Source: Sipunculus nudus (lineage: Eukaryota; Annelida; Sipuncula; Golfingiida; Sipunculidae). Taken from it: a stretch of DNA of 64,000 nt. A program made the translations under genes and the position numbers. The stretch is taken from NCBI GenBank assembly GCA_026874595.1, contig CM049309.1, positions 70,600,926 to 70,664,925 on the forward strand, read 5' to 3'. A model generated the notes under the pieces. It was not told the DNA's origin. It made no database searches and worked only from the letters and a program-made list of their open reading frames with translations. This document shows positions 22,301 through 63,336 of this stretch, piece after piece (positions within the stretch are counted from its first letter, which is position 1; the number at the start of each line of letters is the position of its first letter).

Positions 22301-25300
22301 AAACTAATGATCCAGCATTGAAGCATTATATCTAGTGTATATCCCATTACACATGTTTACATAGGCCTGTAGGCCATGTTATTTTATCAATTTTACTTAA
22401 TCTTTTATTTTGATGAGTAAAATTAAGTATGTAATGATGACTTCAATGATGAAAAACCTTTTAATGGTGATTCGAGGAATAATCTTGAAGATTCCATGTT
22501 GTGGCATTATTGTATCTGCCAAAACGAAGTTTTGCGGATACTATGTTTTTGACCGGGTTCCGCCGCCGCCGCCGCGTTCGTTTCCGGAGAACTCCTCTGA
22601 GACTACTGAACAGATTTTTCCGAAACTTACACAAATTATCGGGTCACATGTGAACTGGTGCCTTACCAAGTGACCTTGACCTCTGACTTTTCGTCTCTGC
22701 CCAGCGTCCGTTTGTGCGTCTGTTTCCACACATAAACCCATATATCTCGGGAACCGTTTGACCGATCCGGAAAAATTTTTTACACAAATGTAGCCCTGGG
22801 AAAGCTTTATAACATACACAACAAAAGGTGGCGCCACCTGCAACTATGTTTGCACAGTGTCCATCTGTTCATCTGCCTGGTGTTAAAATCACTCATATCT
22901 CTGCAGTGATTTGACTAATTCACCTAAAATTCGGCATGCATATACATCCTAGATAGCTTTCTCGATTTTGTGACAGGAGGCGCCACCTACATTCACGTTA
23001 ACGCTCCACACATAATCCCATATATCTTGGGAACCTTTTGACCGTCCGGAAAAAAATTTTTACACAAATGTAGCCCTGGGATAGCTTTATTACATACACA
23101 ACAAAAGGTGGCGCCACCTGCAACCATGTTTGCACAGTGTCCATTTGTTCATCTGCCTGGGGTTAAAATCACTCATATCTCTGCAGTGGTTTGACTAATT
23201 CACCTAAAAATCAGCATGCATATACATCCTAGAAAGCTTTCTTGATTTAATGACAGGTGGCGCCACCTACATTCACGTTAACACTCCACACATAAATCCA
23301 TATATCTCAGGAACCGTTTGACCGATCTGGAAAATTTTTTTTACACAAATGTAGCCCTGGGATAGCTTTATAACATACACAACAAAAGGTGGCGCCACCT
23401 GCAACCATGTTTGCACAGTGTCCATTTGTTAATCTGCCTGGGGTTAAAATCACTCATATCTCTGCAGTGGTTTGACTAATTCACCTAAAATTGGCATGTG
23501 TATACATCCTAGATAGCTTTCTTGATTTTATGACAGGTGGCGCCACCTACATTCACGTTTATGCTGCAGACATCCAAGCTCATATCTTGGGAACCGTTTG
23601 ACCAATCAGGAAAAAAATTTTACACAAATGTAGCCCTTGGATAGCTTTATAACATGAACAAATATGGTGGCGCCACCTGCAGCCATTTTTGCACAGCGTC
23701 CATCTGTTTGTCTGCTGTGGGATAAAATTACTCTGCATTGGTTTGACTTTTACCACATGAAATTTTGCATGTGTATATATCTTGGATAGTTTCTCCTTCA
23801 AATAACAGGTGGCGCCACCTACAATCATGTTTATGTGGCAGAGATCCATTCTAATATTTAACACATGTAACTCTATATCCCCTTGCCACTCAATCAATGC
23901 CTCACTTCACCCGTCCTTCTCTGATTTTGGCGGATACATGTAGTCGCTTGTCGACTACCCGTATTCTAGTTTTATTTTAAATTCAGTTTAAACATTTGTG
24001 ATTTAAAAATGATAAAATATATGTGTATGCATAATATGACCAGATGTGAGCTAAAACCTGGATAATAAATGATTGCTATTTACAGAAAATTCTAATATTT
24101 GTATCCGCCAAAACAGAGTTTTGCGGATACTATGTTTTCAGCTACACGCCGCCGCCGCCGCCGCCGCGTAGGTGTCCGGAGAACTCCTCCGTAACCGCTG
24201 GGTGGAATTTTACGAAACCCGGGATTATGTTCGGGTCACATGTGAACTGCTGTGCCCCGATTTTGTTTTGACCTCTGACCTTTCCTCTGCGCTCTGCGTC
24301 CGTTTGTGCGTCTGTTTCCAGACATAAACCCACATATCTCGGGAACCGTTTGACCGATCAGGAAAATTTTTTTGCACAAATGTAGCCCTTGGAGAGCTTT
24401 ATAACATACACAAAAAATGGTGGCGCCACCTGCAACCATGTTTGCACAGTGTCCATCTGTTTGTCTGCCTTGGGTTAAAATCACTCATATCTCTGCAGTG
24501 ACTTGACTAATTCACCTGAAATTCGGCATGCGTATACATCCTGGATAGCTTTTCTGATTTTATGACAGGTGGTGCCACCTACATTCACGTTTATGCTGCA
24601 GACATCCAAGCTCATATCTCGGGAATCGTTTGACCGATCAGGAAAATTTTTTTGCACAAATGTAGCCCTTGGAGAGCTTTATAACATACACAAAAAATGG
24701 TGGCGCCACCTGCAACCATGTTTGCACAGTGTCCATCTGTTCGTCTGCCTTGGGTTAAAAACACACTTATCTCTGCAGTGGTTTGACTAATTCACCTGAA
24801 ATTCGGCATGCGTATACCTCCTGGATAGCTTTTCTGATTTTATGACAGGTGGCGCCACCTACAATCAAGTTTACGCTGCAGACATCCAAGCTCATATCTC
24901 GGAACCGTTTGACTGATTGGGCCAAAATTTTGCATGTGTATAAATCTCACATACGCAAAACTGGTGGCGCCACCTGCAGCCATTTTGCACATCTCCCGTC
25001 TGTTTGTCTGCCATGGGATAAAATCACTCATATCTCGGCAGTGGTTTGACATATCTGCCTAAAATTTTGCAAGTTTATACATCCCTGACAGCTCTCTTGA
25101 TTTTATGACAGGTGGCGCCACCTACATTCTAGTTTATGCAGCAGATATCCAAGCTCATATCTTGGGAACCGTTTGACCGATTGGGCCAAAGTTTTGCATG
25201 TGTATAGTTCTCACATAGCTCTTTATCATACGCTAAACTGGTGGCGCCACCTGCAACCCTTTTTTGCACAGCGTCCATCTGTTTGTCTGCCAAGGGCGAA

Positions 25301-28300
25301 AATCACTCATATACATGTGGTGGTTTGACTTATCTGCCTTAAATTTTGCATATGTATACAACTTGGACGGCTTTCTGGATTTTGTGGTAGGTGGCGCAAC
25401 CTACATACACAATTTGGCTGCAGACATCCATGCTAATATGCAACACTTCACTCTATTTCTCCTTGCCACTCAATCCATGCCTCACTTCACCCGTTCCACT
25501 CTGATTTAGGCGGATACAAGTAGTCGCTTGTCAACTACCTGTATTCTAGTTTCTTATATTTTCAGATTTTTTATTATAAATTTATAAAACTTGTAAATAA
25601 ACACATAGAATTGGATAAAAACTGTTTATGGAAAAAGTGGATATGCTAAAATTATAAACTTAAATTTATTCCCTTGAAAGTAAAATAAAGGTATCAGTCC
25701 ATTCTGTCCACTTGCCTGTCCATCTGTAAATTTTTCATATGCAACACAGTATCTCAAAACTTTTACTGTTTTATTTCATGACAGTCTTTTCAGAGTATTT
25801 GTTTTGCAATCATTTATTTAGAACTTTACTATAAACAAGTAGGAGGGCCCCTTTCCTCTTAGCTTCTCATATGCTTATACCGTATTAATTCTAATTTGGC
25901 GACCACTTAAAAATAATTAATTTTCTCAGAGGTCGAGATAATGGAGGATATTTTAAAATTATCTTCCTGCAGAATTTGCGGTGGTCGAGTTTTTAGAGGC
26001 ACGCGGTTTGATAACCTTCCCTAGAGCCGCAGAGCCGCTCTGATCTTAGATCTGTCCAGTCAAGATTGCGATCCTAAACTTGACCAGCCCATATTGCGAT
26101 CCATGCGATCCAAGTGTTTCACCTTGTTAATTTATAGTTATTTTAAAATAAAAAAAAAATATTTGTCAAAATTTTAAAATTTTACTCAGACAAGTACTGA
26201 TTAAATATGTCAATATGTTTGACTAATAATATTAAGACTCGTGGCTGTATCAGCTGTCACAAGACTATGTAAATAATCAAAATCTGTATTGCTGGTTCCT
26301 CAATTTATGTTAATAAAATTAAACTTGCCCATCTCTAGTTTTCTCCTTGTACAATTTATAGGGTGTTCTTATGCTTGAGTTATTTTTTATTCTTATAATG
26401 GTTTCATAGCTGAGATTGCTTTTAATTTTTTTTTATATTTTTTAAAATAAAAATATTTAAATATGATAAAAAATCAGATCTTGGACAAGTTCTCTTTATG
26501 ATTTCTGTAATGTTGATAATTGTCATAAGACTTTTGCTATGTGCTTAGATTGATGTGAAAGTAGTCCAAAGTGAATATAATAGTTTTATGTTTAAATATA
26601 AATTAAAGCCATAAAACCAGGTACTTAAGATCATCATGGTCATACTTATGATCAGTTTGTGAAATTAGTAAATTCTGGATTCTCAAGAACTTTGTTTTGC
26701 TGAAATTGAATAAATACCAGACATGATAAGAATTCTTTGCAAATATATTTGAATGCGAATATGAATATATGTACTCCATAATTTCATGCATAAAAATAGG
26801 AATAAAGGTATGAATGAAAGTATTTGAATACAAATGCAAATACTTTCAAAATGTAAACATGAATGTGTTCATGAATATATTCTATAATATTATTTTAATA
26901 ATCATTTATATCGATTATATTATTAAAAGATCTTTTCATATGCATGATGCTGTTATTATTTTTAATTTAAATTATATTTGACACAATATTTGTTTTTTAT
27001 TTATAATAAATAGTTATTTTATTTAGGTTAACCAGTAATTATTAAATATAAGTTCTTTTTTGTAAAAATCAGAATTACCATGACTGATAATGGACAGGTT
27101 TTTATGCCCCCGCCACAAAGTGGCCGGGGCATATAGTTTTACCCATGTCCGTCATTCCGTCATTCCGTCCTTCCGTCATTCCGAAATCAAACAGTTGTAC
27201 GGACTTTTTTTCGCAATGCCTGCAGATATTGGCCTAATTTTTGGTGTGTGGGCAGATATAGACCAGTTACAGATCGATTTCGCGTTTCGTCCCGGTTGAC
27301 CTACTTTTGACCGTTTTACGGCTCCTAAACTTAGAAAATTTCATGAAAATATGAAATTTCATGACAAATACACATGTACGGACTTTTTTTCGCAGTGCCT
27401 GCAGATATTGGCCTGATTTTTGGTGTGTGGACAGATATAGACCAGTTACAGATGGAGTTCGCGTTTTGTCCCAGTTGACTTACTTTTGACTGTTTTACGG
27501 CTCCTAAACTTAGAAAATTTAATGAAAAATAGAAATATTCATGACAGATACACATGTACGGACTTTTTTTCGCAATGCCTGCAGATATTGGCCTGATTTT
27601 TGATGTGTGGGCAAATATAGACCAGTTACAGATCAAGTTCGCGTTTTGTCCCGGTTGACCTACTTTTGACCGTTGTACAAACATAGAAAATTTCATGAAA
27701 AATAGAAATATTCATGAAAGATACACATGTACAGACTTTTTTTCGCAATGCCTGCAGATATTGGCATGATTTTTGGTGTGTGGGCAGATATGGACCTGTT
27801 ACAGATCGAGTTCGCGTTTCGTCCTGGTTGACCTACTTTTGACTGTTTTATGGCTCCTGAACATAGAAAATTTCATGAAAAATATGAAATATCATGACAA
27901 ATACACATGTACAGACTTTTTTTCGCAATGCCTGCAGATATTGGTCTGATTTTTGGTGTGTGGCCAGATATTGACCAGTTACAGATTGAGTTCGCATTTC
28001 GTCCTGGTTGACCTACTTTTGACTGTTTTACGGCTCCTGAACATAGAAAATTTCATGTAAAACATAAATTTTCATGACAATAACACTTGTACAGACTTTT
28101 CTTCACAATACCTGCAGATATTGGCCTGATTTTTGGTGTGTGGGCAGATAATGACCAGTTACAGATCAAGTTCACGTTTTGTCCCAGTTGACCTATTTTT
28201 GACCGTTTGACGGTGCTCTAACAAAGAAAATTTCATAAAAAGGTGCATATGTATAGACTTTTTTTCACAGTGCCTGCAGATATTGGCCTGATTTTTGGTG

Positions 28301-31300
28301 TGTAGGCAGATAATGACCAGTTACAGATCGAGTTCTTGTTTTCTCTCAGTTGACCTACTTTTGACCATTTGACTGCTCCTGAACATAGAAAGTTTCATGA
28401 AAAATATAAATTTTCATAACAAATGCATATGTACTTACTTTTTTTCCTCAATGCCTGCAGATACCACCCTGATTTTTTATGTGTGGGCAGATAATGACAG
28501 TTACAGATCGAGTTCGCGTTTCATCCGGGTTGACCTACTTTTGATTGTTTTACGGCTTCTAAACATAGAAAATTTCATGAAAGACAGAAATTTTTATGGA
28601 AAATGCACATGTATGGACTTTTTTTCACAATGCCTGCATATACTGGCATGATTTTTGGTGTGTTGCTTGATAATGACCCGTTACAGATCGAGTTTGCATT
28701 TTGCCCTTGTTGACCTACTTTTGACCATACGACACCTCCTGGACTTAAAAAAATTTTCAAAATTTTACAAATGTTTCTAATTTGCCCAAGGCGGGGGCAT
28801 TCGTGTCGTTCCGACACATCTAGTTTTCAAATAATTCTACTGCAATGTAGATAAAGTTATATGGCCAAGTCAAAACCTATGTGAAAACAGCACACCATTT
28901 CCAACTGTATATAACATAAATGACATCAATCCTCTTCCCTGTCTCCAAGGATATTATCATAATCTTACATAACTTGAGTTAAACACCATCAGCTCATAAA
29001 AGAGCTTATATTACCACACAAAACCTGCACTTGCCTACCTCCTCTTCCAAATCAAATTTTGTGAGCATATAAAACCCATAGGTTCCTTGCAACCATGCAA
29101 TACTAAATGAGTTGGTGAAACATCCCATGTTTCACTCCTGTGATATGAAGGAGTGAAAATTGTCTTTCTGTATTATAATTGTATTTATTATGGGAAATTG
29201 GTACAATGCATACCAAATGAGTTGGTAAAACAACCAATGTTTCACTCATGAGATCGTAAAAGCATGGATCGCAATATGGGCTGGTCAAGTTTAGGATTGC
29301 AATCTCGGCTGGACTGATCTTAGATCTGAAAGACAGGATTGCGATCGCAGTTTGGGCCAGCCTGAACTGCGATCGCAATTTGGGCTGGACAGATCTAAGA
29401 TCCGTCCAGATCGCGATCTGGGCCTTGACATATATATCACTCCTAGGCCCATAATGTTTTCTCTACCTTATGGCATTATATTAATGGTTTCCGGCCACAA
29501 TTTTCATGTATAACACAGTAAAATATACACATCAGATTTTGTTTATGCTCATCTGAAAATGGAATTGAAAAAAATTTTTACAGCATTTTATTTCAGTTTA
29601 TAAATTAAACATGTATTATTTTACTTCAGCTTATCTCCACTTTTTAGCCAAGCCAAGCCAAAAGAAGTATACGCTCATCGAGCAGCTACAGGTTGCTGCG
29701 GTCAAGACCTCAGCCCTGTGCGCTCCTTAAGCACGTTCTCTGAGCCAACAGTCGCAGTGCCACGCCAAGCCAAGCAAGGAGCCATAGGGGGCGCCCTCTT
29801 CTCTCCAGGGTTGAAGTCCTTGTTAGAAAGCTACAGCACCCACAGCCACAAAGCCCGAAGCAACCCGCATTCCCTCTACCGATCCCAGCAGCGGAGACCC
29901 AGCCATGCCATTCGAGAGCCGAACTCGATCATTGTGAACGACTTTACTTCGAGACGCAAAGCCCTTTTACTTGCGTTTTTGGTCATTTGGACCGTTTAAC
30001 CAGTTTCCCAGTTATGCAAGTTAACAAGTTTTTTCTTCATCGGCAATCCACTTTTTAGCGAACCTGTGAGCTTATGCGATGGTGTGGCGTCGTCCGGCTT
30101 CCGTCGTCCGGCGTCTGTACATTAACCCATACTAACTTGAAAACGGCAAGAGTAAGCATCACGAAATTTTATGCAAAAAATTAGTCATCTGAAAAACTCT
30201 ATCGGATTTTGCTTATTTTTTGGCTAACTGCATTTTCTTAGATTTTATTGAGAAAAAGCTAAAATAGCTTTAAAAATCTTCTTCTCCGAAACTGTTCAGC
30301 CAGATTGTCCAATATTTCACAGAAATGATCCCTGGAACAATCTCTCTCAAGTTTGTTCGAATGGTTTAAGTTCGGTGATTTTTGGCTGAGTTACAGCTAG
30401 TTGAACTTAGTCATCTGTCCAAAAAAGCATACTAAAATTACAAACTTAGAAACAGCTGGAGCTATCATCACCAAATTTTATGCCAATGTTGGTCACATGA
30501 GTCATATCTGAAATTGAGGTATTGGTGGCGCCACCTGCATCTGCCTTTTTTGTACAAGGGTCATCAGTGCCCGTATCATACTGACAGCTACAAATAACTT
30601 CTTCTCTGAAATGATATAGCCAATTTGTTTAATATCGCACAGAAATGATCCTAGGGTAGTGCTTTCTGAAGTTTGTTCAAATGGTCTCAGTTCAGTGACT
30701 TTTGCTAAGTTATGGGAAGCTGAATTTAGTCATATACCATGACAGCCTATTTTAGCTAAGTGGCTACAAAAATCTTCTTCTCAAAAACCACTGGGCCAAA
30801 TTCTTAAATCTCACACATTAATTATCCTTAGATGTTGATAATTCAAGTTTGTTCAAATGGTTTTGGTTCAGTGATTTTTGGCTGAGTTATGGGTAGCTTA
30901 ACTTAGCCATTTTGCTGTATTTTCCCGTATGAGTTATAAACCTGCAAAACATTTTTAGACTGACGCCACTGAGGCCAATTTGTTTAATATTTTACAAGAA
31001 TAGTCCCCTGAATAATTCTTATAATGATTATCTTTTATGGTGCCAAAGAATGAATTATGGCTGAATTATAAAGATTTAATTAAGTCATTTTACCATATAT
31101 GGTAGCTGTGTAAAGCAGATTCATCTAGCCTAGCAACAGTTTATCAGCATCCCTTACATCATGCCTCTAGACCTTCAGATTTCAGGTTATCTATGGTTGA
31201 TATTGACAAGAATGTTTTTTAAAAGCTTTTAAAAAATGTAGATTTATGATTTTAGATATACTTCTTACCAGGCAATGTCAACAATCACAGGTGTACAGCT

Positions 31301-34229
31301 CTCTGTGGGTATATAAAGACGGCTATACATAGATTATAAATAATTGGTATCCATACTCAACTTAATTCAAGATTTTGCCGTCAGTGAGATGTATCTGTAT
31401 TATAATTTTGCATTCAATATGCATCTGTAGTAATTTTTAGTGAGCCTGTGAGCTAATTTGATGTTGTGGCGGCGTCCATAGTCCACCTTCTGTAAGTTAA
31501 CCCATACTATTCGAAAACGACTGGAGCTAGCATCATGAAATGTAATGTTAAAAATTAGCCATCTGAAAAACTCTGCATTTTCTTAGATTTTAATGAGTAA
31601 AAAATTAAAAAACCTTTAAAAATCTTCTCTGACGACACGGTCAAGCCAAATTGTTCAGTATTTCACAGAAATGATCTTTTATATCATATCTTACAAGTTT
31701 GTTCGAATGGTTCAAGTATGATATAAAAGATTAAAAAGTATTTTAGCCAAAGTTTTTCAGTATGTGTAAACAGATTTACCAACAGGCCAAGATTGTGTCT
31801 GTAATTTAAATAGGTTGAGAAACTGCCAACTGTTTCAGATTTGGCAACAGATCAAGAGTTCTTTCAGTGCAGCCAGATATAGGTCAAGAGTTCAATCAGT
31901 GCAGCCAAGCACAAGGCATGTGATCACCTCATGGGTGACATGTGAACACCTCATGGGCACCATGTTATAACCTCAAAGGTAGCATGTGATCAACTCATGA
32001 GTATCATGTGATCACCTCATGTGTGTCATGCCCCTCAGGGCTGCATGTGGAGCCAATCTGAGAGCTTATGCAATGGTGTGGCTACTATTTCAGATTAGGC
32101 AACAGGTCAAGAGTTCACTCAGTGCAGCCAGGTATAGGTCAGGAGTTCACTCTGTGCAGTAGCTGCATTCTATTGATAGCAGTGGTAGACTGCCCACTGC
32201 ATCAGATTTGGCACAAAAGTTCAGCCTGGATCTATTTATAGCTTTGGCAGACTGCCAACTGTGTTAGATTATGCAACAGGTCAAGAGTTCACTCAGTGCA
32301 GCCAGGTACAGGTCAAAAGTTTACTCAGTCTAGCCAGGTGCAGGTCATGAGTTCACTCAATGCAGTAGCCTGAGCAAGCAATTTGTCACAGTTCACTCGG
32401 GGCAACTGCCTTTCTCACCTAAACCTGGTCAGCCCCATGCATCAGACTCAAGGTAGGTTTGATGTATTGGCCTAATATAATGACCTGTCTATGTGTCTTT
32501 GATGGCTTTCTCACACACAAGACAGGTGTCGCCACCCACAATGACTTTTGCACAGTTTGTGTCCCTGCGTTTTCTCAGGAGGGGTTTGATATATCAGTCT
32601 GAAATTGGGCATATGTATATATCTCAGATAGCTTTGTTGTATACAAGACTGGTAGTGCCAGCTACAATCATTTTTGTGTTGTGTGCACCCATGCCAGAAT
32701 TTCAGCAGTGATCTTTGTGTAATTGTTTCATATTCAAAATAGTTAGTACTTGCATTGTTCATATACATGAAAAGTAATGGTCCAGCATTGAAGCATTATA
32801 CCTGGTGTATTTCCCAATGCACAGGTTCGCATTAGGCCTGTAGGCCTTGTTACCTTATTCTATAATTAACAGGTATTCATACATTCCCATTGTTATTTTA
32901 TCCACATATTTCTGTCACATAGCTGAAATAATAGTACTTCTAGAAATATTTGATCATGAGAGACTCCTGCACCTTTTATATAGTCCATAACAAGTGCACA
33001 GTTTTAGATTGCCAAATATATATTTAATATTTGAATATCATCAGTGAGTTGGACCATTTCCTTTTGTCTTTTAAATGCTAATTATATATTTTAAAAAATC
33101 ATTATATTTTGCATTTGGTAGTATTTTCCAAAATTCAGCTGAGCGATGTGACCCATTGGTCCATTGTTATAAGAAAATAAAGGAAATATAGAGATTTGTT
33201 GGATCACCACCTCTAAAAATTTTCATTTAGGTGTCATGTTTGTTACTAATTATTCAGCTACTTATGAGGAAAAATCTAGGTCTTCACCTTTCCGATGGAT
33301 TGGTACAAAATGAAAATGCCTTTCCGTGCACGAGTATGTCTGTCTTAGACAGGCGAAAGGCATTTTTTAGACCCCTGTATAGTATAAACTTTTAAAACAA
33401 ATTTTGACAAAATGTCCAGACAAACATCACCATTTAGACACTTGATTAAAATCCATGTTTTTTTTTCTTTTCAGTTACACTTCAGGTTGTATCATGTTCA
33501 TCATCTCTCTTATCCATGAGCTGGTCTCTGGTATCCTACCACCGATCACTTCGGAGTTCTTTACCATTCAAAGAAGAAATGTCATGGCCAGGTTCTATCA
33601 TGCAGTTCACATGGAAAGCGCTGATGATCGCGGGTAGGGTGCTTACCTTTGCCGTGTTTGCTGCGAGGTACGACTTCTGGATCGCTGTTCTTGTTGGCTG
33701 TCACTGGATGTTAATGTTCGGGTGGATATACATATTCCTAGAAAGTTCTTTCTGTGGGAAAAACAACAAAGTAGGGGAGTTCTTCTTTAATATTGTTATG
33801 GCTGTAGTGTATATATTTACGTTTTTAAATCTCACTGAAGGTCACACAAGATTGCGCTATCTCTTTTTTTACTGTGTTACATATGGTGAAAACATAGGCA
33901 TGATCGCTGCCTGGTATGTGGCAACGGCTACCAGCTCACTGTGGTATCAGATACCGGTACTGGCAGTGGTAGTGGGGGGATTTCCATTAGGAGTGATCTG
34001 CCAAATTATATATTACCTCACCTGTCATCCAAATAACAGATTAGAGGACCCTGACAGGCATATTAAGGTATGGATACCATGCTCAAAACTGCTCGGTCAA
34101 GTGAAAGACCAATCACACAGGAAAAGTCAGTCCTCGGAGCAGAAGAGAACAGTTCATAGCAAGAGTAACAATCCAGTTGTAGTCAATAGCCAGCCACCTG
34201 CTTTAGTTATACATGAATCACATGTTTAA
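8212..34229 (+). CDS. XK-related (XKR) membrane protein, three coding exons
   Basis: Joining 8212-9176, 12961-13166 and 33475-34229 gives one open frame of 641 residues. Junction codons are split as ag|g (Arg322) and a|tt (Ile391), both at GT..AG introns. Residues 1-230 are polar, charged and probably disordered. From about 235 come membrane segments with XK-family hallmarks: [10 protein letters not shown] across junction 1, then [15 protein letters not shown] and [14 protein letters not shown] in exon 2, then [13 protein letters not shown] and [18 protein letters not shown] in exon 3. The family comprises plasma-membrane proteins. XKR8, XKR4, XKR9 and nematode CED-8 scramble phospholipids after caspase cleavage, while other members have no proven activity, so scramblase function here is inferred. 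The start ATG has A at -3 and is the first ATG of the frame near a CCAAT-bearing leader. An upstream non-coding exon cannot be excluded. Which paralogue this is cannot be told by eye. Confidence 0.93.
9213..9430. repeat. Dispersed repeat J, second copy
   Basis: It begins 37 bp into intron 1 and matches about 5505-5740 over roughly 220 bp at moderate identity. It is non-coding and unclassified. The two copies are direct repeats that bracket exon 1. Confidence 0.5.
9431..11839. other. XKR intron 1, mostly unassigned
   Basis: AT-rich intronic DNA. ACAGTAAAACCTGTAAAACC near 11141 resembles a worn pogo/mariner-type terminus, but no partner end was found. No coding exon with XKR similarity was seen between exons 1 and 2. 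Confidence 0.4.
11840..12700. repeat. Tandem array, ~143-bp unit, about six copies
   Basis: Units share AACTCAACAACAACATACTGCAGCTTTCC, then AATTCACAGGGATGRTTGGTACCTATGA, then GGCTCCAGACCTAT. The CTGCAG box falls at about 11871, 12014, 12160, 12303 and 12427, giving spacings near 143-146 with one shorter unit. The last unit is decayed. It sits inside intron 1, ending 260 bp before exon 2. It could be a local satellite or the core of an eroded element. Confidence 0.8.
12961..13166 (+). CDS. XKR exon 2 (residues 322-391 split)
   Basis: This exon is too short and too intron-bound to show as a large open frame of its own. It follows a TTTTGTCAG acceptor at 12960 and precedes a GTGAGT donor at 13167. 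In the frame set by exon 1 it reads [20 protein letters not shown], then [19 protein letters not shown], then [20 protein letters not shown]. The EAAPQLxLQLYI stretch is the most conserved signature of XK-related proteins. The phase (1 base in, 1 base out) fits both neighbours exactly. Confidence 0.93.
13255..14055. repeat. 27-bp minisatellite built on the palindrome ATGAGAATTCTCAT
   Basis: About 25-30 diverged units of the form AGAATGAGAATTCTCATATGTCCAGGA start ~90 bp after the exon 2 donor. The GAGAATTCTC core is self-complementary, so the array could form cruciforms or hairpins in RNA. Units decay toward the right end. Open frames on either strand here are by-products of the repeat. Confidence 0.88.
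14056..15880. other. XKR intron 2, unassigned
   Basis: AT-rich intronic DNA with no recognisable gene or complete element. A small frame at 15535-15732 shows no family features. Confidence 0.4.
15890..17215 (-). mobile_element. Family D-like core fragments, minus strand, split by a MITE
   Basis: The pieces 15965-16200 and 16985-17215 carry ATTGTAGGTGGC, CTTGTGTATGAGAAAAC and GATGGATGAACATG, the minus-strand form of the D core seen at 3.8-5.1 kb. No terminal hairpins are clear, so this is a worn or partial copy. A TA-flanked MITE interrupts it at 16251-16982. Confidence 0.5.
16251..16982. mobile_element. Mariner/pogo-like MITE with TA target duplication
   Basis: The left end CAGTCCAACCTGTCTGAATG pairs with the right end, whose reverse complement is CAGTCGGACCTATCTAATGCG, and the inverted match continues into GACCACC. 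TA lies on both sides (16249-16250 and 16983-16984). The 732-bp length, internal copies of the CGACCACCTG theme and lack of a transposase mark it as a MITE. The frame at 16502-16732 resembles no transposase I know. Confidence 0.78.
17258..17279. repeat. (TA)n microsatellite, left of family F
   Basis: A short pure TA run adjoins the left inverted arm of the family F element. Confidence 0.85.
17278..19266. mobile_element. Family F, ~2-kb element with ~107-bp inverted ends
   Basis: The left arm 17278-17384 and right arm 19160-19266 are reverse complements at roughly 85-90% identity. Each arm holds five or six TGCCGA/TTGCCGAA boxes about 10-16 bp apart, which could be repeated transposase sites. 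The element lies exactly between TA microsatellites. The interior has three ~90-bp direct repeats (17464-17655: TTGTACATATCAGTAAATTA, CAGCAGACGGTGATT) and a TC-rich tract. No transposase is seen. The class is uncertain; a long-TIR MITE is the simplest reading. Confidence 0.7.
17842..17917. repeat. (TC)n microsatellite
   Basis: A run of about 20 CT dinucleotides with impure TC/CTCC flanks, inside family F. Confidence 0.9.
19267..19352. repeat. (TA)n microsatellite, right of family F
   Basis: About 80 bases of near-pure AT repeat. Frames reading repeated Tyr-Ile on both strands come from it. Confidence 0.95.
19354..19660. mobile_element. Family G element, left half of a split copy
   Basis: It begins CAGGGGTCATAATACTTTG after the TA microsatellite and follows the intact copy at 2660-3162 as far as AAATTATACACCATTTT, where a family C start takes over. 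The rest of the same copy resumes at 33167. The two parts sum to about 518 bp against 503 bp for the intact copy. Confidence 0.8.
19661..20112 (+). mobile_element. Family C (alpha subtype) 5' part
   Basis: It starts AGCTCAGCATACTATAAC and reads TTGAGCTATAGTGATTGTCC, the family C start hairpin, then GACGTCCCCAAGTTCTCCTACC and the core shared with 40813-42280. Core identity to the other alpha copy is clear to about 20110, where the text becomes family D. Its matching end may be either 29089 or 33166. Confidence 0.7.
20113..22378 (+). mobile_element. Family D element, 5'-incomplete, hosting a TRIM-like insert
   Basis: From about 20113 the sequence aligns with the D core (ATGCAAATGTTGGTCATGTG, GGTGCCACCTACATTGATCTG). 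It then follows the ~35-bp CAGGTATAGGTCAAGAGTTC / CAGTGCAG units and ACAAGACTGGTGGTGCCACC units shared with 30.5-32.7 kb and 58.6-62.5 kb. It ends with the D terminal hairpin AGGCCTGTAGGCC at 22363-22375. The D start is missing, apparently lost at the junction with family C. A 676-bp LTR-type insert lies at 21456-22131. Confidence 0.68.
21456..22131 (-). mobile_element. TRIM-like miniature LTR element in triplet form (fossil)
   Basis: There are three ~141-156 bp LTR-like repeats (21456-21596, 21716-21856, 21976-22131), each opening TGTTACGRGG and closing GTAACA. Two ~119-bp spacers separate them. Each spacer opens with TTGGGGCTCGGCC, a plausible tRNA primer-binding site, and closes with a purine-rich AAGAGGGG tract. 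ATAT flanks both ends, and an empty site is preserved in a related D copy near 32620. The LTRs contain tRNA-like promoter boxes (TAGCGAAGCGG at 22033-22043; GGTTCGAATCC at 21802-21812), recalling Cassandra and the animal Helenus/Ajax type. The signals read on the plus strand as listed, so orientation is tentative. It has no coding capacity. The near-identical repeats suggest a recent arrival. Confidence 0.65.
22511..23969 (+). mobile_element. Family A (Helentron/pearl-like) element, copy A1
   Basis: It starts TGTATCTGCCAAAAC, with a hairpin closing at GTTTTGCGGATAC. A GCC-repeat box follows, then ~290-bp tandem units, each holding two GGTGGCGCCACC palindromes and CTCATATCTCTGCAGTGGTTT. It ends with GGCGGATAC (reverse complement of the start), the hairpin GTAGTCGCTTGTCGACTAC and ATTCTAG before a T-run. 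It is non-coding. This end structure fits the Helentron group: short inverted repeats, subterminal on one side, then a hairpin and CTAG. Confidence 0.82.
24100..25549 (+). mobile_element. Family A element, copy A2
   Basis: Same ends as A1: TGTATCCGCCAAAACAGAG at the start, then GGCGGATAC, GTAGTCGCTTGTCAACTAC and ATTCTAG at the finish. It has a longer (CCG)n box and about five half-units with GGTGGCGCCACC. It lies 130 bp after A1 in the same orientation. The cores differ enough that A1 and A2 look like separate insertions or an old duplication. Confidence 0.82.
25550..27103. other. Intron 2 filler within the nested block
   Basis: AT-rich. About 26041-26105 is the inverted partner of 29268-29330. 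About 26510-27060 is homologous to 42710-43180, the tail of the other family C alpha element, which supports this being the body of the same C element. The minus-strand frame at 26603-26839 has a counterpart in that copy but reads as repeat, not protein. Confidence 0.5.
27104..28823 (+). mobile_element. Family B (Helentron/pearl-like) element, copy B1
   Basis: It starts ATGCCCCCGCC, folding with GGGGCAT. About nine tandem units of ~178 bp follow; each has TGCCTGCAGATATTGG, CAGTTACAGATCGAGTTCGC and GTTGACCTACTTTTGACCG. It ends GGCGGGGGCAT, the hairpin GTGTCGTTCCGACAC and ATCTAG before T's. The 11-bp end repeat is perfect. No palindrome box is present in this core. It is non-coding; the open frames come from the repeat. 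Confidence 0.85.
28824..29089 (+). mobile_element. Family C (alpha) 3' tail
   Basis: TTATATGGCCAAGTCAAAAC, AATCCTCTTCCCTGTCTCC and CCACACAAAACC are shared with 43200-43439. The tail closes ACCCATAGGTTCCTTG, matching the other alpha copy's ACCCATAGGTCCCTTG. The preceding short inverted repeat is worn. It is therefore a candidate end for the C element that begins at 19661. Confidence 0.6.
29090..29640. repeat. Hairpin-bearing repeats and an inverted partner of 26.0 kb
   Basis: Two diverged ~40-bp copies (CAAATGAGTTGGTNAAACA .. ATGTTTCACTCNTGNGAT) lie about 110 bp apart, and each can pair GTGAAACAT with ATGTTTCAC. Then 29268-29330 (GGATCGCAATATGGGCTGGT, CAAGTTTAGGATTGCAATC) is the reverse complement of about 26041-26105. 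Further copies of GCGATCGCA / TGGGCTGG follow to 29430. Confidence 0.6.
29641..30003 (+). other. GC-rich island with an open frame of about 116 codons, unclassified
   Basis: An open frame without a clear ATG runs from about 29646 to TAA near 30000. It is basic and Ser/Pro-rich, and ends [14 protein letters not shown]. Base composition is far richer in GC than its surroundings. CAGCCCTGTGCGCTCCTTAA at 29711-29730 is repeated exactly at about 1639-1658. It could be a fragment of an unrecognised element or of a processed gene copy. I recognise no protein family. Confidence 0.35.
30057..32849 (+). mobile_element. Family D (Helentron/pearl-like) element, composite
   Basis: It starts AGCGAACCTGTGAGCTTATG after a T-run. 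The core has AAACGGCAAGAGTAAGCATC-type units, a GGTGGCGCCACC box at 30525 and the CAGGTATAGGTCAAGAGTTC tract. It ends CACAGGTTCGCATT, the hairpin AGGCCTGTAGGCCT and CTTG before T. The short repeat GCGAACCTGTG / CACAGGTTCGC is perfect over 11 bp. A second D start lies inside at 31439, so one D copy appears inserted in another and they share the only end. Confidence 0.8.
31915..32035. repeat. ~24-bp minisatellite in the D element
   Basis: About five units of CATGTGATCACCTCATGGGTGA with drift. The unit contains the palindrome TGATCA. It is absent from the D copies at 20.1-22.4 and 58.2-63.3 kb. Confidence 0.75.
32850..33166 (+). mobile_element. Outer block tail with a family C 3' end
   Basis: Unassigned AT-rich DNA up to 33133, then TTCAGCTGAGCGATGTGACC, CATTGGTCCATTG, the worn family C end. 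The block closes at 33166, exactly where the split family G copy resumes. Confidence 0.6.
33167..33377. mobile_element. Family G element, right half of the split copy
   Basis: It resumes at ATAAGAAAATAAAGGAAATA, collinear with 2960 of the intact copy. It runs through TCTTCACCTTTCCGATGGAT and AGACAGGCGAAAGGCA, and ends GACCCCTG. The right end lies 97 bp before exon 3. Confidence 0.8.
33475..34229 (+). CDS. XKR exon 3, C-terminal half and stop
   Basis: The acceptor is a long T-run ending CAG at 33472-33474. A second possible CAG acceptor (33483-33485) would be out of phase. In frame the exon begins TLQVV and runs through [13 protein letters not shown], then about five or six hydrophobic segments to [15 protein letters not shown] polar tail of ~65 residues ends at TAA 34227-34229. 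[10 protein letters not shown] and [11 protein letters not shown] are strong family matches. The tail has LEDPD but no clear DxxD caspase site of the kind used in vertebrate XKR8. The exon starts 97 bp after the right end of a mobile element, yet the splice site looks intact. Confidence 0.93.
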
Positions 34230-49390: not shown

Positions 49391-49394
49391 TTTT

Positions 49395-52300
49395 AGCTTA
49401 GCTGACTGAAAGTCATCTGAGCTATAGCGATCACCCTTTATCCGTCCGGCCGTCCGTTAACAGGGCACAAATTGTAACCGCTGGACCTGGAATCTTCTAA
49501 CTTGACATCCAGGGAGGTCCATGTAAAATCTCCTTGGAAACCTGAACTTGGGTCTCTGTTACCCTTATTCTCTAAGCTATGGGTCTCGTAAGTACCTCCC
49601 AGAATAATCAACAATTTGATACAAAAGCTCAAGTATCTGAATAACTACTGCATTGATCACCATGACTCTTTGTATGAATATTGATCATGAAGTGTTTCAT
49701 CAGTTCCTGTAAACTAGTGGCGCCGCCGGTATTTTTTCAATTGTCTACGAATTTTTTCTGTATTTTTGATACCTTCTAAGAATCTGTCATCTGTAAACAG
49801 GGCACAAATCGTAACCGCTAGACCTGGAATCCTCTCACTTGACATCAAAGGAGGTCCATGAAAAGTCTCTGTGGAAACCTGATATTCGGTCTGTGTTACC
49901 CATATTCTCCAACAAGGGGACTCATAAGTTCCCCCCAGAATAATCAAAAATTTGAAACAAAACCTCAAGTATCTGAATAACTACTGCATTGATCACCATG
50001 AATCTTTGTAAGAATTTTGTTTATGGAGTGTTCCATCAGTTCCTACAAACTGATGGGGCTTCCTGTATTTTTTCAATATTTACGAATTTTTATGCCCCCG
50101 CCACAAAGTGGCCGGGGCATATAGTTTTACCCATGTCCGTCCTTCCGTCATTCCGAAATCAAACAGTTGTACGGACTTTTTTTTTCGCAATGCTTGCAGA
50201 TATTGGCCTGATTTTTGGTTTGTGGGCAGATAATGACCAGTTACAGATCGAGTTCGCGTTTCGTCCCGGTTGACCTACTTTTGACCGTTTTACGGCTCCT
50301 AAACTTAGAAAATTTCATGAAAAATAGAAATTTTCATGACAAATACACATGTACGGACTTTTTTTCGCAGTGCCTGCAGATATTGGCCTGATTTTTGGTG
50401 TGTGGGCAGATAATGTCCGTCCGTCTGTCCGTCCGTTCCGCGTCTGTTAACTTTTACCTTGTGAGCAGGACATCTCTAAAAGGATTCACCGTTGGAATTT
50501 TATTTCATCAGTGAAGATGTATATCGATCAAATCTCGGTCAAGTTCGAAGATGGGTGACCTTGACCAATTTTTCTACATTTTAGAGCTGATTATAGAAAA
50601 ACACTCAGCAGTTTATATCTCAGGAACCATTGTGTGGATTTTCACCAAACTTACTATGATCATTGGGACTGATGGTCTGTATGTGCTGCACAATTTTGGT
50701 GGCGCCACCTGCAATTTCTGATTTTTTTAATGAAATTTTATCGGATTTTTTTTCAATTTTGGCCTTTTGTGCAGGATATCTCCAAAGGTATTCAACACAG
50801 GAACTACATTTCTTCAGTGCTATTGCATTATATTTACGAAATCTTGGTCAAGTTCAAAGATGGGTGATCTTGACCTACTTTTCAAGGTCACAGAGCTTAG
50901 TATAGAAAAAAACTTAGGAGCTTATTTCTCAGGAAGCATTTGGTGGATTGTTATGAAACATGGTATATACCTCTCCAATTTAAATTTATAAATGATAATC
51001 AACTTTTGCTAATATTCTAGTTTCGCAATGCAATGCTTACAGATACTGGCCTAATGTTTGGTCTGTGGGCGCATAATGACCACTTACAGATCGAGTTCGC
51101 ATTTCGTCCCAGTTAACCTATTTTTCACCATATGACAGATCCTGCACATAGAAAATTTCATGAAAGACAGAAATGGACTTTTTTTCACAATGCCTGCAGA
51201 TACTGGCCTGATTTTTGGTGTGTTGCTTGATAATGACCCTTTACAGATCGAGTTTGCATTTTGCCCTTGTTGACCTACTTTTGACCATACAACACTTCCT
51301 GAACTTAAAAAAAATTTACAAAATTTAACAAATGTTTCTAATTTGCCCCAGGCGGGGGCATTCGTGTCGTTCCGACACATCTAGTTTTTCTTTATTTTTG
51401 ATACCTTCAAAGAAGCTGTCATCTGTTAACAGGGTACAAATCGTAACTGCTGGACCTGAATCTTCTTACTTGACATCAAAGGAGGTCCATGGAAAACTGA
51501 AATTAGGTCTCTGTTACCCATATCCTCCAAGCTATGGGTCTCGTAAGTACCCTCCAGAATAATTAAAATGTGATACAAAAACTATGCTTTAGTTTCCAGA
51601 GAAATTCTCTGAGATCCTTGGTCTGATCTTTCCGAAACCGAGTATAGTTGTTCCTTCACCTATGTTGTTGTGCCTAACAAAGACAGATGGCACCACCAGC
51701 AATCCTTTTTGTGCAGTACGAATCTGGGTGTCTTTTAGATAACAGCCCATATCTCAGGAGTGGCTAAATGTATTTTGCTGAAAGGCTGCATATATATAGA
51801 CCTTGGATCTCTCTGTTTCATAATTGCGACTGGTGGCGCCATCTACAATACTTTAAGCGTAGTGTCCATCTGTACATATGCCACCTGTTCGTCTTAGTGG
51901 TTCTTCAATGTATTGGGTTGATATGTGCATGTTCATGGATCCTCAACACCTACATCTCGTCAAGACTGGTGGAGCTACCTACAATCATTTTCCTGTGGCG
52001 TCCATCAGTACATGTGCTTTTGGTGAAAATTGCTCATATCTCAGGAATGGTTCAAGATACTGGTATGAATTTGGCGTGTCCATCCATCTTGGAAAGATTT
52101 CTCATAAGCCAGACAGGTAGCGCCACCTACTTTCCTGGTTTTGAAGATTAAAAAAATTCACTTTTCTCACTAGTGATTTGCTGTATTGCTCTGAAATGGT
52201 GCATACCCATAGATCTTGGACTCCTCCATATTGTACTCAAGACTGGTGGTGCCATCTGCAATAGTTTTCTTGTGGCGTCTATCCATGCATGTTTTTTGGG

Positions 52301-52505: not shown

Positions 52506-52559
52506 TTCTCACATCGAATCCAATACAAAACTGTCGTATTTACCCGGAATCTTACCAGA

Positions 52560-53890: not shown

Positions 53891-53929
53891 AACAATATAT
53901 AGCGTTTAGTTCTTAGCATCTCGAAAGGG

Positions 53930-57010: not shown

Positions 57011-57143
57011 CCAATCAACACAAATAAAACAGCAACACTTCCATAATTTTATTTTGATAAGACAGCTGACAACATGGATAGTTAAAGTCTGTGGAAGTTG
57101 TTCAGACACAACTGGTATCACTGGATATCACTAACACAATCAA

Positions 57144-57815: not shown

Positions 57816-57988
57816 TAATCAATAAACACACCAGGTTTGGGGACACTAGAAGGAATGACAGATTAGAAACTGACATAATTGTTGTCATTTTATAGAAAAA
57901 ACAATAAGAAAATTACAGGTGGCGCCACCACTTTCTGGAACGGTCAAAATTAGTCATGGTCAATATTCAAAGCAAGATTAATGCCAAT

Positions 57989-58150: not shown

Positions 58151-59371
58151 TCCATGCATTATTTATCAAGATATTGGAGGTTTTGTACAAATTTTTAGCG
58201 AACCTGCGAGTTTATGCGATGGTGCGGCGTCGTCCGTCGTGCGTCGTCTGTACGTTAACCATAGCTATCTCAAAAACGGCAGGAGCTAGCATCACCAAAT
58301 TTTTTGCAAATAATCAGTCATCCAAAAAACTATATCGGATTTTGTTTATTTTTTTTCTAACTGCATTATCTTAGATTTTATTGGGAAAAAGCTAAGAAAA
58401 GCTTTAAAAATCTTCTTCTCCGAAACTGTCCAGCCAAATTGTCCAATATTTTCTAGAAATGATCCCTGGAACAATCTTTCTCAAGTTTGTTCGAATGGTT
58501 CCAGTTCGGAGATTTTTGGCCGAGTTACAGGAGGTTGAACTTTGTTAACTTTGCAAAAAAGCATATTAAAATTTAAATCTCAGAAACGGCAGGAGCTATC
58601 ATCACCAAATTTTATGCCAATGTTGGTCATATAGGTCATATCGGAAAATGAGGTATTGGTGGCGCCACCTGCATCGGCCTTTTTTGTACGGGGTCATCAG
58701 TGCCTGTATCACACTGAGGGCTACAAAAAACTTCTTCTCTGAAACCATACGGCCAAAATGTTTAATATCGCACAGAAATGATCCTAGGGTAGTGCTTTCT
58801 GAAGTTTGTTCAAATGGTCTGTTTTCAGTGACTTTTGGCTAAGTTATGGGAAGCTGAATTTAGTCATATGCCATAACAGCCCATTTTAGCTCAGTGGCTA
58901 CAAAGATCTTCTTCTCAAAAACCACACGGCCAAATTCTTAAATCTCACATATTAATTATCCTCAGATGTTGATAATTCAAGTTTGTTCAAATGGTTTTGG
59001 TTCAGTGCTTTTTGGCTCAGTTACGGCTCAGCTGAACTTAGCCAGTTTGCTGTATCTTCATATATGAGTTATAAACCTGCAAAACGTTTTCGACTGATGC
59101 CACTGAAGCCAGTTTGTTAAATATTTTACAAGAATAATCCCTACAATAATTCTTATAATAATTGTTATTAATGGTTCCACATGAATGATTTTTTGCTGAA
59201 TTATGGAGATTGAATTGAGTCATTTTACCATATATGTTAGCTGTGTGATGCTGTTACATTTAGCCTGGCACTAGTTTATCAGCATCTATTACATCATGCC
59301 ACTAGACATTTAGATTTCAGGTTATCTTTGGTTAATATTGACAAGAAAGTTTTTTTTTAAAGCTTTTAAAA

Positions 59372-61434
59372 CTAGACATTTCTTGGCACCGCTGGTGCCA
59401 TAGTATCGCCAGACAAATGAGGTTTTGTGGTATTTTGTTGATATAATGTGATGTATTTGTATTTTAGCAATGAATGTGAGAAACATTTGTACAAAATATA
59501 GGAATATTTAAAGTGAAGGCAATTGTTATGTAAAAGGTTATGTATAAATAAAAAGTATATATTTAATGATGTATTGAGTTGTATATGTATGTTTGGAGTA
59601 ACTTGTTTGAGAATTATATAGAGTAAAGCAGAAAGAAAGAGAAAGAGATGGATAGACAGGATTTCAGAGAGATGGAGAGATATGATAATGAGAATGAAAT
59701 AATAATATCTGTTATATTTTGTTTCACATCATATTTTGTTCTTTGTAATAAATTGTTATATTGTCATAAAAATTGTCATTTGTTCCTTATCAATAGCATA
59801 AATTGTGGAAAAACAAGAAAATAGAGTAGGGGGTGCCACCATGCAGTTCCCAGCAAATGACTCATCACATTACCCATATATATCTATATGCATAATATGA
59901 AAGATATCTGCCAATTAGTTTCCAGCACATGACAACACTATCCAACAACTTTTTAATTTTTATTTTATAATGCTGACAATACTGTCAAGTCCCATATAGG
60001 CAACATTTATGAGCCATTTTAAATAGTCTTCATCCAAAGGTCAAGACCACTCTCAAAGGAAAATGATCCAATTGTGACTCTGTGGTACATCCAGTGCACT
60101 AATTCATTTATCACTGACCATCATATATATTTATAGAATCTGACCATGGCCCAGAACTGCTGATGTTTGGGCAAAACATGATGCAACACCATGTGCACCC
60201 CACTAGCTGAAGCAATCCCCCAGGTTCACTGGAGATTTTCATGATTGTTGGTGATTTTTACCATATATGGCAATATTTAAAGTCAAGTCCACTCTCATAT
60301 GCAAGGTCAGGACCCAAATTTAAATATATCTCATCCCATAATCCAAATCTATGTATATGCATAATATAAAAGAAATCTGTCCATTAGTTTTTGACTTATA
60401 ATGCTCACAGTGCTGTCAAGTGGCCCTTTTTAAGATATTCATGATTTTATGTTTTTCACCAAATATGGGAATATTCAAGGTCAAGGTCACTCTCATAGTC
60501 ACGGTCATGACCCCAAATCAATAAACTGCATTCCAAAATATCCAACATTTGAAAAAAAAATTAAATTAAAAAAAAATAATTTAAATTAAATTAAATTTTA
60601 AAATTAAATTTAAAATTAAATATACCTCATTCCATAAACATATCTATATACATGCATAACATGAAAGAAATCTGTCCATTACTGTTTGACTTATAATGCT
60701 CACAGTATATACTGTCAAGTGGCAATGATGGGGTATTCAAATGCGCAAAAAACAAGAAAAGGACAACAGGTGGCGCCACCTATCTTCTGCAAAAGAACTA
60801 TCCAAGATCTTCCGTCAACTTGATTTTTGGACCAATCCATGCATCCCTTTTTAAGATATTCATGATTTTATGTGATTTTCACCATATATGGTAATATTCA
60901 AGGTCAAAGCCACTCTCAAAGGAAAGGTCATGACCCCAATTTTAATATACATCATCCCATAACCCATACCTATGTACATGCATAATATTAAAGAAATCTG
61001 TCAATCAGTTTTTGACTTGTGATCCTAAAAGTACTGTCAAGTGGCAATGATGGGGGTATTAAACGGCACAAAAACAAGAAAAGGATACTAGGTGGCACCA
61101 CCAGTTTCCGGTACATGACATCACTATCCAAGATCTTTGTCCAACTTGATTTTTGGATAAATCCATTAAAGATTTCTTGAGATATTTAAGAATTTGTGTG
61201 ATTTTCCCCAAAAATGGATCTATTCAAGGTCAAGGTCACTCTCCTAGTTGAGGTCATGACCCCATTTTAAATAGGCTTCGTCCTCTCACCTATATCTATA
61301 AATGTGTCAAGTTTGAAAAAGATCCTTGAAATATTTTTTGAGTTATTGTGTCCAAAAGAAATCTCTGCGGCGGCGGCGGCGGCGGCGCAACCATGCCTAA
61401 ACCATAGTATCTCCAGACTATGTCTGGCGATACA
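59372..61434 (-). mobile_element. Family E (Helentron/pearl-like) element, minus strand, inside D
   Basis: On the minus strand it starts TGTATCGCCAGACATAGTC, a hairpin closing at GTCTGGAGATAC, then a GCC-repeat box. The core has units with AGTGACCTTGACC and a GGTGGCGCCACC at 60769. It ends TGTCTGGCGATACTATGG, the hairpin GGCACCAGCGGTGCC and AAATGTCTAG before TT. The 13-bp short repeat GTATCGCCAGACA / TGTCTGGCGATAC is perfect. D sequence continues on both sides. Confidence 0.83.
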
Positions 61435-62530
61435 AATATAGATTTATTATTTTAGTTATTCATCATACAAGGCAATGTTACATTCATGGATATTCAGCTC
61501 TCTGTGGCTATATAAAGACAACTGTACGTGCATTATAAATTATTTGTATACCTACTCAACTTAATTCAAGAATTTGCCATCAATGAGATATATCTGTATT
61601 TTAATTTTACGTTCAGTATGCATCCGTAATAATTTAACATATATTCCTGATTTCTTTTTTTTTTTATAAAAAAGTCAGCTGAAAAGCATTTTGTATTCGG
61701 AAAATAAATTTCAAAGTTATTTCAAGTAGGGACCACTTTTGTGTACAGATGGCAGCACTTGGTTTACCATTGGCAGATTGCCAGTGCCTTGATGTTGGCC
61801 ATGAGCCAAGATGTTGTCAGCTCTATAAATAGTTATGGCACAGTGCCAGGATTGGAAGAAGTGCAGCCAGGTATAGGTCAAGAGTTCACTCAGTGCAGTA
61901 GCTGCATTCTATTTATAGCTTTGGCAGACTGCTCACTGCATCATATTTGGCACCAAAGTTCAGCCTAAATCTATTTATAGCTTTGGCAGACTGCCAACTG
62001 TGTCAGATTATGCAACAGGTCAAGAGTCCATTCAGGGCAGCCAGGTACAGGTCAAAAATTCACTCAGTCTAGCCAGGTGCAGGTCAAGAGTTCACTCAGT
62101 GCAGTAGCTTGAGGCAGCAATTTGTCACAGGTCACTCGGGGACAACTGCCTTACTCACCTAAGTCTCGTCAGCCTAATGCATCAAACTCTGGGGAAGTTT
62201 GATGTATTGGACTGATATTTTGACCTGTCTATGCGTCTTTGATGGTATTCTCATTTACAAGACAGGTGGTGCCACCTACATTGACTTTTGCAGTGTATGC
62301 GCCTGCTTATTTCTACCGAGGAATTTGATACATCAGCTTAAAATTGGGCATGTTTATACATATCGGGTAGCTTTATAGTGTACAAGACTGGTGGCGCCAC
62401 CTACAATAATTTTGGCACAGTGTATGTCCCTGCTTATTTGAAAGAATGGGTTTGACATATCAGCCTGACATTGGGCATATGTATATATCTATTCGTTGTA
62501 TATAAGACTGGTGGTGCCAGCTACAATCAA

Positions 62531-63158
62531 TGTATCCGCCAAAACAGAGTTTTGCGGATACTATGTTTTCAGTCGGACGCAGATGCTGCTGCCAACGCCG
62601 CATAGGTTTCTGGAGAACTCCTCCATAAACACTGGGCAGAATTTTTTAAATTCGGAAATATGATCAGTCACATGTGACTTGCTGCGCCCTCATTTTTGGT
62701 TGACCTCTGACCTTTCCTCGCTGCCCAGAGTCCATTTGTGCGTCTGTTCCCACACATAAACCCACATATCTCGGGAACCGTTTGACCAATCAAGCTAAAT
62801 ATTTTGCACAAATGTAGCCCTTGGAAAGCTTTATAACATACACTAAAAATGGTGGCGCCACCTGCAACCATTTTTGCACAGCGTCCATCTGTTCATCTGC
62901 CTTGGGATAAAATCACTCATCTCAGCAGTGATTTGACTTTTCCACCTGAAATTTTGCAGGTTTATCCATCCTGGACAGCTTCCTCGATTATATGACATGT
63001 GGCACCACCTACATTCACGTTTATGCTGCAGACATCCATGCTAATATGCAACACACCTCACTCTATTCCACTTGCCACTTAATCCATGCCTCACTTCACC
63101 CGTCCCACTCTGATTTCTGTGGATACACATAGTCGCTTGTCGACTACCCATATTCTAG
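62531..63158 (+). mobile_element. Family A element, copy A4 (shortest)
   Basis: It starts TGTATCCGCCAAAACAGAG and ends GTGGATACACATAGTCGC, TTGTCGACTACCCATATTCTAG. It has a single core with one GGTGGCGCCACC at 62850. It sits inside D sequence: ACTGGTGGTGCCAGCTACAATCA just before it matches 32649-32670. Confidence 0.83.
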
Positions 63159-63336
63159 TTTTAAAATGTCCTAGTCTGAAACTTGCAGGTTCGAAACGTC
63201 CATTTTGCTGAAATCATAATGACTAAGGTAGATATGTAGGACTAAAGAGGATAAATATTAAATTTAAAAAAAAAACCTCCATTCATACTCCCAAACTTTG
63301 CACAGGTTTGCATTAGGCCTGTAGGCCTTGTTTTTA

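Follow-up and report, generated by a model that had tools for sequence, protein, structure and literature searches.

Nested families of HINE-type elements with a common end plan in a 64-kb stretch of the Sipunculus nudus genome

RESULTS

Complete elements of five families share an end plan

Inspection of a 64,000-nt stretch of the genome of Sipunculus nudus (GenBank assembly GCA_026874595.1, contig CM049309.1, positions 70,600,926 to 70,664,925 of the forward strand; hereafter, the window) identified 13 complete copies, with both ends present, of mobile elements belonging to five families, named A to E (Table 1). These elements are almost certainly HINEs, that is, non-autonomous elements of the Helentron type, representing at least four or five families that have repeatedly inserted into one another. 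This kind of element is already known, and the anatomy described here contributes further families to it. About 42% of the window (26,874/64,000 bases) was element-derived, a share based on intervals set by hand and counting partial elements.

All five families showed the same arrangement. Elements start with a short repeat, the reverse complement of which lies 19-32 bp from the finish; this is followed by a hairpin, by CTAG or CTTG as the terminal bases, and by flanking Ts. An original prediction made from the sequence had proposed this common plan for the five families, with the reverse repeat 20-40 bp from the finish. The repeats, their reverse complements, the 3′ hairpins and the CTAG/CTTG ends were all found, the distance after the reverse repeat ranging from 19 bases (D) to 32 (A); the hairpin expected at the start was lacking in D (see below). 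The repeats were 9 bp (A) to 13 bp (E) long. In family A, which comprises four copies with common boundaries, the repeat GTATCCGCC was located at 24101 and 62532, and its reverse complement at 23929 and 25509. The corresponding pairs were at 27104/50092 and 28790/51351 in B, at 40094/40814 and 43907/52474 in C, and at 30058 and 32820 in D, where the match at 3806 marks the 3′ end of D0, a copy on the minus strand. The E repeat at 59403 was paired with that at 61421, the element running on the minus strand from 61433 to 59372. The C repeat was also found at 59026 (within D3) and at 33135 (the end of a remnant). Elements began with GTATC, ATGCC or AGC/AAC. The left flank ended in T for all 13 copies, and the right flank began with TT for 12 of them; the Ts that had been predicted after CTAG/CTTG were thus present at every copy except D0. 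Central tandem repeats were detected with Tandem Repeats Finder (TRF). The sequences also show microsatellite-like stretches, which consist of CCGTCATT in B, of GTCC/TCTG in C and of runs of GCC in both A and E, those of D being irregular.

Table 1. Elements identified in the window (position 1 is the first base of the window)
Feature	Position	Strand	Description
A1	22512..23969	+	Family A; 280-bp tandem units, 3.6 copies (TRF)
A1 ends	22512..23969	+	Hairpin at start, GGCGGATAC, 3′ hairpin, CTAG followed by TTTT
A1 core	22827..23819		Eight GGTGGCGCCACC sites, 7 exact; spacing approximately alternates between 149 and 131 bp
A2	24101..25549	+	Family A; 80.4% identity to A1 over 1485 columns
A3	45600..46497	+	Family A; ends decayed; missed by the hairpin geometry search
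A4	62532..63158	+	Family A, within D3; left flank resembles D copies, right flank does not
B1	27104..28823	+	Family B; 180-bp core units without the palindrome
B2	50092..51384	+	Family B, within C2; empty site 49456-49965
C1	40093..43938	+	Family C (end sequences and boundaries)
Cin	40813..43439	+	Second family C element, within C1; empty site 40183-40775
C2	49395..52505	+	Family C; C-type units, then A/D-type core modules at ~51680-52391
C4	57143..63480	-	Partial family C; 3′ end near 57143, core 63365-63479; D3 inserted in C4
D1	30057..32849	+	Family D; without 5′ hairpin
D3	58197..63330	+	Family D; holds E1 and A4; empty site 49657-49442 (minus strand)
D0	3789..5080	-	Family D; the final G of CTTG is base 3788
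E1	59372..61433	-	Family E, within D3; hairpin GTATCGCCAGACATAGTCTGGAGATAC; empty site 30937-31436 in D1
Partial C-start plus D-type material	19662..22393	+	C-like start at ~19662, D-like end at ~22393; four near matches to the palindrome

Empty sites reveal insertion between Ts and a history of nesting

A search for empty sites had been proposed as a check. The 300 bp at either side of each copy were joined and searched for in the window for 12 copies (all except D0). Paralogous empty sites aligning across the junction were found for four of them: B2 (82.7% identity over 515 columns), Cin (79.6%, 597 columns), D3 (69.3%, 218 columns, minus strand) and E1 (83.3%, 504 columns). The junction alignments were cleaner for B2 and E1 than for D3 and Cin. 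Filled and empty sites differed by the element itself and by additional Ts, numbering from about none to four. Apart from Ts, nothing was duplicated at these four target sites, the insertions sitting in T-runs; neither the clear target duplications nor the long terminal inverted repeats considered earlier as grounds for another classification were observed. A history of nesting can be read from these data: the minus-strand C element C4, the 5′ end of which was not recognised, received D3, which in turn received E1 and A4; C2 received B2; and C1 received the second C element.

Hairpins of varied sequence and recurrent geometry at most 5′ ends

DNA folding predicted that the first repeat forms a 5′ hairpin in families A, B, C and E. 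The 3′ hairpin, explored in all copies other than Cin, folded in A1, A2 (weakly), A4, B1, B2, C2, D1, D3, D0 (a short one) and E1; that of A3 had decayed. For C1 an alternative fold was predicted, although its 3′ end contains the palindromic TGACCCATGGGTCA. By eye, the 3′ palindromes of C1 and C2 differed by one change present at both sides, GACCC/GGGTC versus GGCCC/GGGCC.

The nine intact 5′ hairpins always had a loop of 3 nt, the letters of which varied (GAA, AGA, AAA, TTT, ATA), and were directly followed by TATG in A and E and by TAG in B and C. The window was searched for this geometry with no sequence requirement: an inner stem of 5-6 perfect pairs around a 3-nt loop, a single interruption in the form of a 1-nt bulge or a 1x1 mismatch, and an outer stem of five or more pairs, of which one may be G-T. 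The search gave 13 hits, corresponding to 10 distinct sites in the 64 kb. Nine of these were the 5′ ends of A1, A2, A4, B1, B2, C1, Cin, C2 and E1, while the tenth, at 39376, was AT-rich; four of the 13 copies (A3, D0, D1 and D3) were missed. Twenty-five shuffled sequences gave a mean of 1.4 hits (maximum 4). When at least 12 G or C were demanded, 12 hits remained in the real sequence, as against a shuffle mean of 0.08 (maximum 1). Varying the loop length (no G-T allowed, at least 10 G or C) gave nine hits for loops of 3 nt, three for 5 nt, two for 9 nt, and none for 4, 6, 7 or 8 nt. Since the rule was defined after the hairpins had been seen, and since the ends of A are related to those of E, this is a descriptive test covering three sequence groups.

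The second arm of the subterminal inverted repeat (subTIR) of Drosophila DINE-1 reportedly leaves a 3-nt loop as well. Such a loop would not be universal, however, since the spacing between the subTIR and its inverted repeat in the Cg_HINE elements is 1-12 bp (PMC7492417). Neither the geometry rule nor a core palindrome shared across families was met in the portions of the HINE literature covered. A narrow search of one open-access library for a helitron described with a triloop gave no match, which does not imply absence from print.

The end sequences had been considered unrelated among families. In a comparison of seven copies this proved too strong a statement for A and E, whose first 45 bases were related (z 7.5; 0/500 shuffles scored as high). 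B-E (8/500) and A-B (12/500) were borderline, and pairs involving C or D were weaker, the best being D-E (21/500). For the last 45 bases no family pair was prominent (best 42/500). The comparisons thus point to about four 5′ sequence groups and five different 3′ ends.

A palindrome and core modules shared among families with different ends

The 12-letter palindrome GGTGGCGCCACC occurred 23 times in the window as an exact match, 41 times with up to one mismatch and 52 times with up to two; the means for thirty first-order Markov sequences were 0, 0.03 and 0.43, respectively. Seventeen of the exact sites were in A, three in D, one in E, one in a foreign piece inside B2, and one at position 57918, in the C4 interval. 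Allowing two mismatches, 46 sites lay in complete elements, four in the partial element at 19662-22393, and two elsewhere, at 16104 (a remnant) and at 57918. Besides A1, exact or near matches were found in A2-A4, C1, C2, D0, D1, D3 and E1, those of the family C cores being near matches only; B1 had none. The matches at 45644 and 61381, in GCC-rich stretches near 5′ ends, are probably unrelated.

The foreign piece of B2, delimited by eye at ~50416-51020, has a GTCC-rich start and ends in TATTCTAG followed by TTT; with no visible subterminal repeat, it might be a 5′-truncated element or the product of a core swap. D elements also contain short tandem repeats of 22 and 32 bp (31917-32030, 32276-32365 and 62015-62104; TRF) that are unlike the larger modules.

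A profile of the A half-unit was run with nhmmer against the window with A masked. With E-values down to 8e-24, or down to 8e-20 when the palindrome was masked, it matched the C2 tail, a remnant at 15.9-17.2 kb and the D elements, the last on the strand of each element. The reversed-sequence control, which covers the unmasked run only, gave one match (E 0.46). Judged by this similarity, A, D and one C element (C2) have homologous core modules despite their different ends. Matches to the C units and to E (E 3e-6 to 0.02) disappeared, or fell to E 0.45, once the palindrome was masked, and the weak opposite-strand matches are likewise due to the palindrome. Full homology to the A/D module was rejected for the C units, E, the left D array and the B2 piece, none of which passed E 0.1 after masking; they have the palindrome in common and little else. 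In shuffle tests, only borderline pairs emerged among these, such as A2half-C unit and A1half-left D (1/200 shuffles each).

Core sharing might reflect common descent of whole elements, the ends having diverged faster than the cores with no exchange between families. The 5′ ends of A and E are indeed still related, and the orientation of the core relative to the ends was consistent in the stronger nhmmer matches, including those of the minus-strand copies D0 and E1. However, the ends of A and D have no clear similarity, yet their cores match with E-values down to 8e-24; further, C2 carries two unlike arrays between its C ends, and B2 has a foreign core piece inside. Common descent is on the less probable side. 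Exchange of cores among families would accommodate these arrangements. Palindromes at repeat junctions have precedents: DTC84 of bivalves has a conserved palindrome near the repeat junction (second-hand; among PMC7492417, PMC5139131 and PMC11136912), and in the mollusc satellite phBglII400, 13 of 16 junction breakpoints fell at a 12-bp palindrome. By analogy, one plausible role for the core palindrome would be that of a hinge for exchange.

Alternatively, the palindrome could be the site of a host factor, for example through its CTCF-like core AGGTGGCGC; it would then be retained for a helpful or insulating effect on the element and not as a part of transposition. This sequence occurs in a published CTCF test oligonucleotide, and in the modules of A, of right-hand D and of the C2 tail, just 3-7 of ~130 twelve-column stretches equalled the palindrome in conservation. 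Nevertheless, the likeness to CTCF is limited to nine bases, and the other half of the vertebrate motif was not evident alongside. The conservation measure is biased, since sites were chosen by their match to the motif, and the palindrome was unexceptional in the C units (31/122 stretches) and in the left D array (48/129); B1 lacks it altogether. This explanation is thus unlikely, and the CTCF idea is a lead only. A narrow search of one open-access library found the letters of GGTGGCGCCACC in a single paper, on bacteria, which does not imply absence from print in other contexts.

Neighbouring gene and other repeats

Pfam matches to XK-related proteins were obtained for three open reading frames (ORFs) that follow the order of the profile (8203-9177, 12893-13171 and 33450-34226), indicating that the window contains an XK-related gene with long introns. 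Many of the elements are situated between these ORFs (8203-34226). Repeats of other kinds were also observed. A segment at 6762-8016 has inverted repeat arms of ~400 bp (78% identical) with TTAA on both outer sides; it looks like a non-autonomous DNA transposon with a TTAA target, presumably of the piggyBac or Kolobok type. Tandem 260-bp units starting with TGTTAC and ending with GTAACA lie at 21456-22131 (TRF), with ATAT on both sides and a purine-rich stretch preceding a repeat start. They look like a tandem element of the TRIM (terminal-repeat retrotransposon in miniature) or long terminal repeat type inserted in a D-type core. Finally, TRF detected a tandem array of ~145-bp units at 11835-12698 and a diverged array of 27-bp units, rich in GAATTCTCAT, at 13270-13749.

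DISCUSSION

The elements described here present several features of HINEs: subterminal inverted repeats, with the 3′ one lying well inside; a 3′ stem-loop; a microsatellite-like stretch plus a tandem core; and insertion at TT, the four empty sites showing duplication of nothing but Ts. A further feature, a 5′ inverted repeat or palindromic 5′ subTIR, is present in A, B, C and E. The Helentron-type outline proposed originally therefore stands, apart from the 5′ hairpin of D.

The suggested comparison with bivalve elements also proved apt. The Cg_HINE elements of Crassostrea gigas follow the plan 5′ subTIR, complementary inverted repeat, microsatellite, 3′ subTIR and palindrome, and insert at TT with no target site duplication; 11 of them are described from a single genome, several with unrelated modules (PMC7492417). 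Those of S. nudus have the same end parts and target, and here too a single genome harbours several families whose modules are unrelated. Further likenesses are a GTCC-type microsatellite in several Cg_HINEs, tandem cores of mostly 140-180 bp, and some elements with two arrays (PMC7492417). The differences lie in the loop, since the variable 1-12 bp gap of Cg_HINE contrasts with the 3 nt of the nine intact A/B/C/E hairpins, and in the cores. Each Cg_HINE core cluster is tied to one flank pair, related flanks with unrelated cores being reported but not the reverse (PMC7492417), whereas in S. nudus related cores occur between different ends. DINE-1 (PMC2374699) and the HINEs of mites and Drosophila (PMC4067079) similarly have subTIRs, a 5′ inverted repeat or palindromic subTIR, a microsatellite, central repeats, a 3′ stem-loop and TT insertion. 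However, the published letters of the DINE-1 subTIR are not those of A-E, and, as against both groups, the families in S. nudus are nested and several have a core palindrome in common. The pearl elements (CvA, CvE, CvG) and DTC84 of bivalves resemble them, by description only, in being modular with satellite-like core repeats (PMC7492417, PMC5139131, PMC11136912).

Several observations weigh against this assignment. No convincing 5′ hairpin was found in D1, D3 or D0. The repeats of family A have just 9 bp and vary from copy to copy; they are short compared with the 11-15 bp published for HINE subterminal repeats. A1, A2, A3, C1, C2 and D1 gave no empty site, the flanks of A4 matched on the left only, and those of B1 matched only partly, on the right. 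A 2-bp TT duplication would be indistinguishable from variable T-runs. For the related helicases that had been suggested to mobilise the families, no autonomous partner or Rep/helicase fragment was seen in the window: six-frame searches for Rep motif 2, the P-loop and other patterns gave just two chance-like YI.KY matches, and Pfam searches with 10 hand-chosen ORFs of the 134 stop-to-stop ORFs of at least 70 aa recognised the host gene only. 

Rfam (at gathering scores) and ARAGORN detected nothing in the window, and exact-pattern scans with core and end pieces gave no match among the genome contigs or viral contigs searched. In favour of the assignment, a strict scan for the whole plan found four end sites (B1, B2, C and E) against a mean of 0.4 and a maximum of 2 in 40 dinucleotide shuffles; it did not recover family A, a failure probably due to imperfections in the repeats and 3′ stem of that family. 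Without the demand for a 5′ hairpin the scan found seven sites, adding D and two chance-like ones, against a mean of 1.9 and a maximum of 6, so that, taken by itself, this relaxed version is weak evidence. Stronger evidence than these scans comes from the occurrence of several copies and from the empty sites.

Two other classifications were considered. Canonical Helitrons start with TC, end with CTRR and insert between A and T; the starts and T flanks observed here do not agree with this, and CTAG is compatible with CTRR but CTTG is not. Cut-and-paste miniature inverted-repeat transposable elements (MITEs) have inverted repeats at their very ends and a fixed target duplication, neither of which was seen. 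That the present elements are MITEs of this kind, flanked by a TT duplication and mobilised through binding of a DDE transposase to their inverted repeats, is very improbable: inverted repeats near both ends and Ts on both sides would suit it, and DINE-1 was formerly interpreted in this way, but the ends are not symmetrical, the 3′ repeat lying 19-32 bp inside, beyond a separate hairpin and CTWG, and the extra Ts at the empty sites number about none to four rather than a fixed two.

For the HINE assignment, we envisage that a Rep/helicase supplied by a partner elsewhere in the genome would bind the subterminal repeat of the 5′ end, probably in the form of a single-strand hairpin, nick the DNA and displace a strand. 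Rolling-circle copying would stop at the 3′ reverse repeat and hairpin, at CTWG, and T-rich DNA would receive the copy at a junction between Ts. The tandem cores would travel as passengers and might be exchanged among families with different ends. We tentatively suggest, while holding it to be on the less probable side, that the shape of Helentron-type 5′ ends, and not their sequence, is what is recognised (a 3-nt loop of free sequence on an inner stem of 5-6 bp, one interruption of 1 nt, and an outer stem), and that a small core cassette bearing the palindrome moves among families whose ends differ, owing to some advantage that it confers in copying or chromatin.

Should the shape rule apply to other genomes, it would allow the 5′ ends of elements that are hard to annotate to be located even where their sequences are dissimilar, and it would be plausible for a single enzyme to serve families whose ends differ. 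The work on C. gigas offers scenarios for the retention of satellite-like cores but, in its accessible parts, no settled answer (PMC7492417). The common palindrome provides a concrete handle on why such cores persist in these elements, and both it and the shape rule are worth testing in whole genomes.

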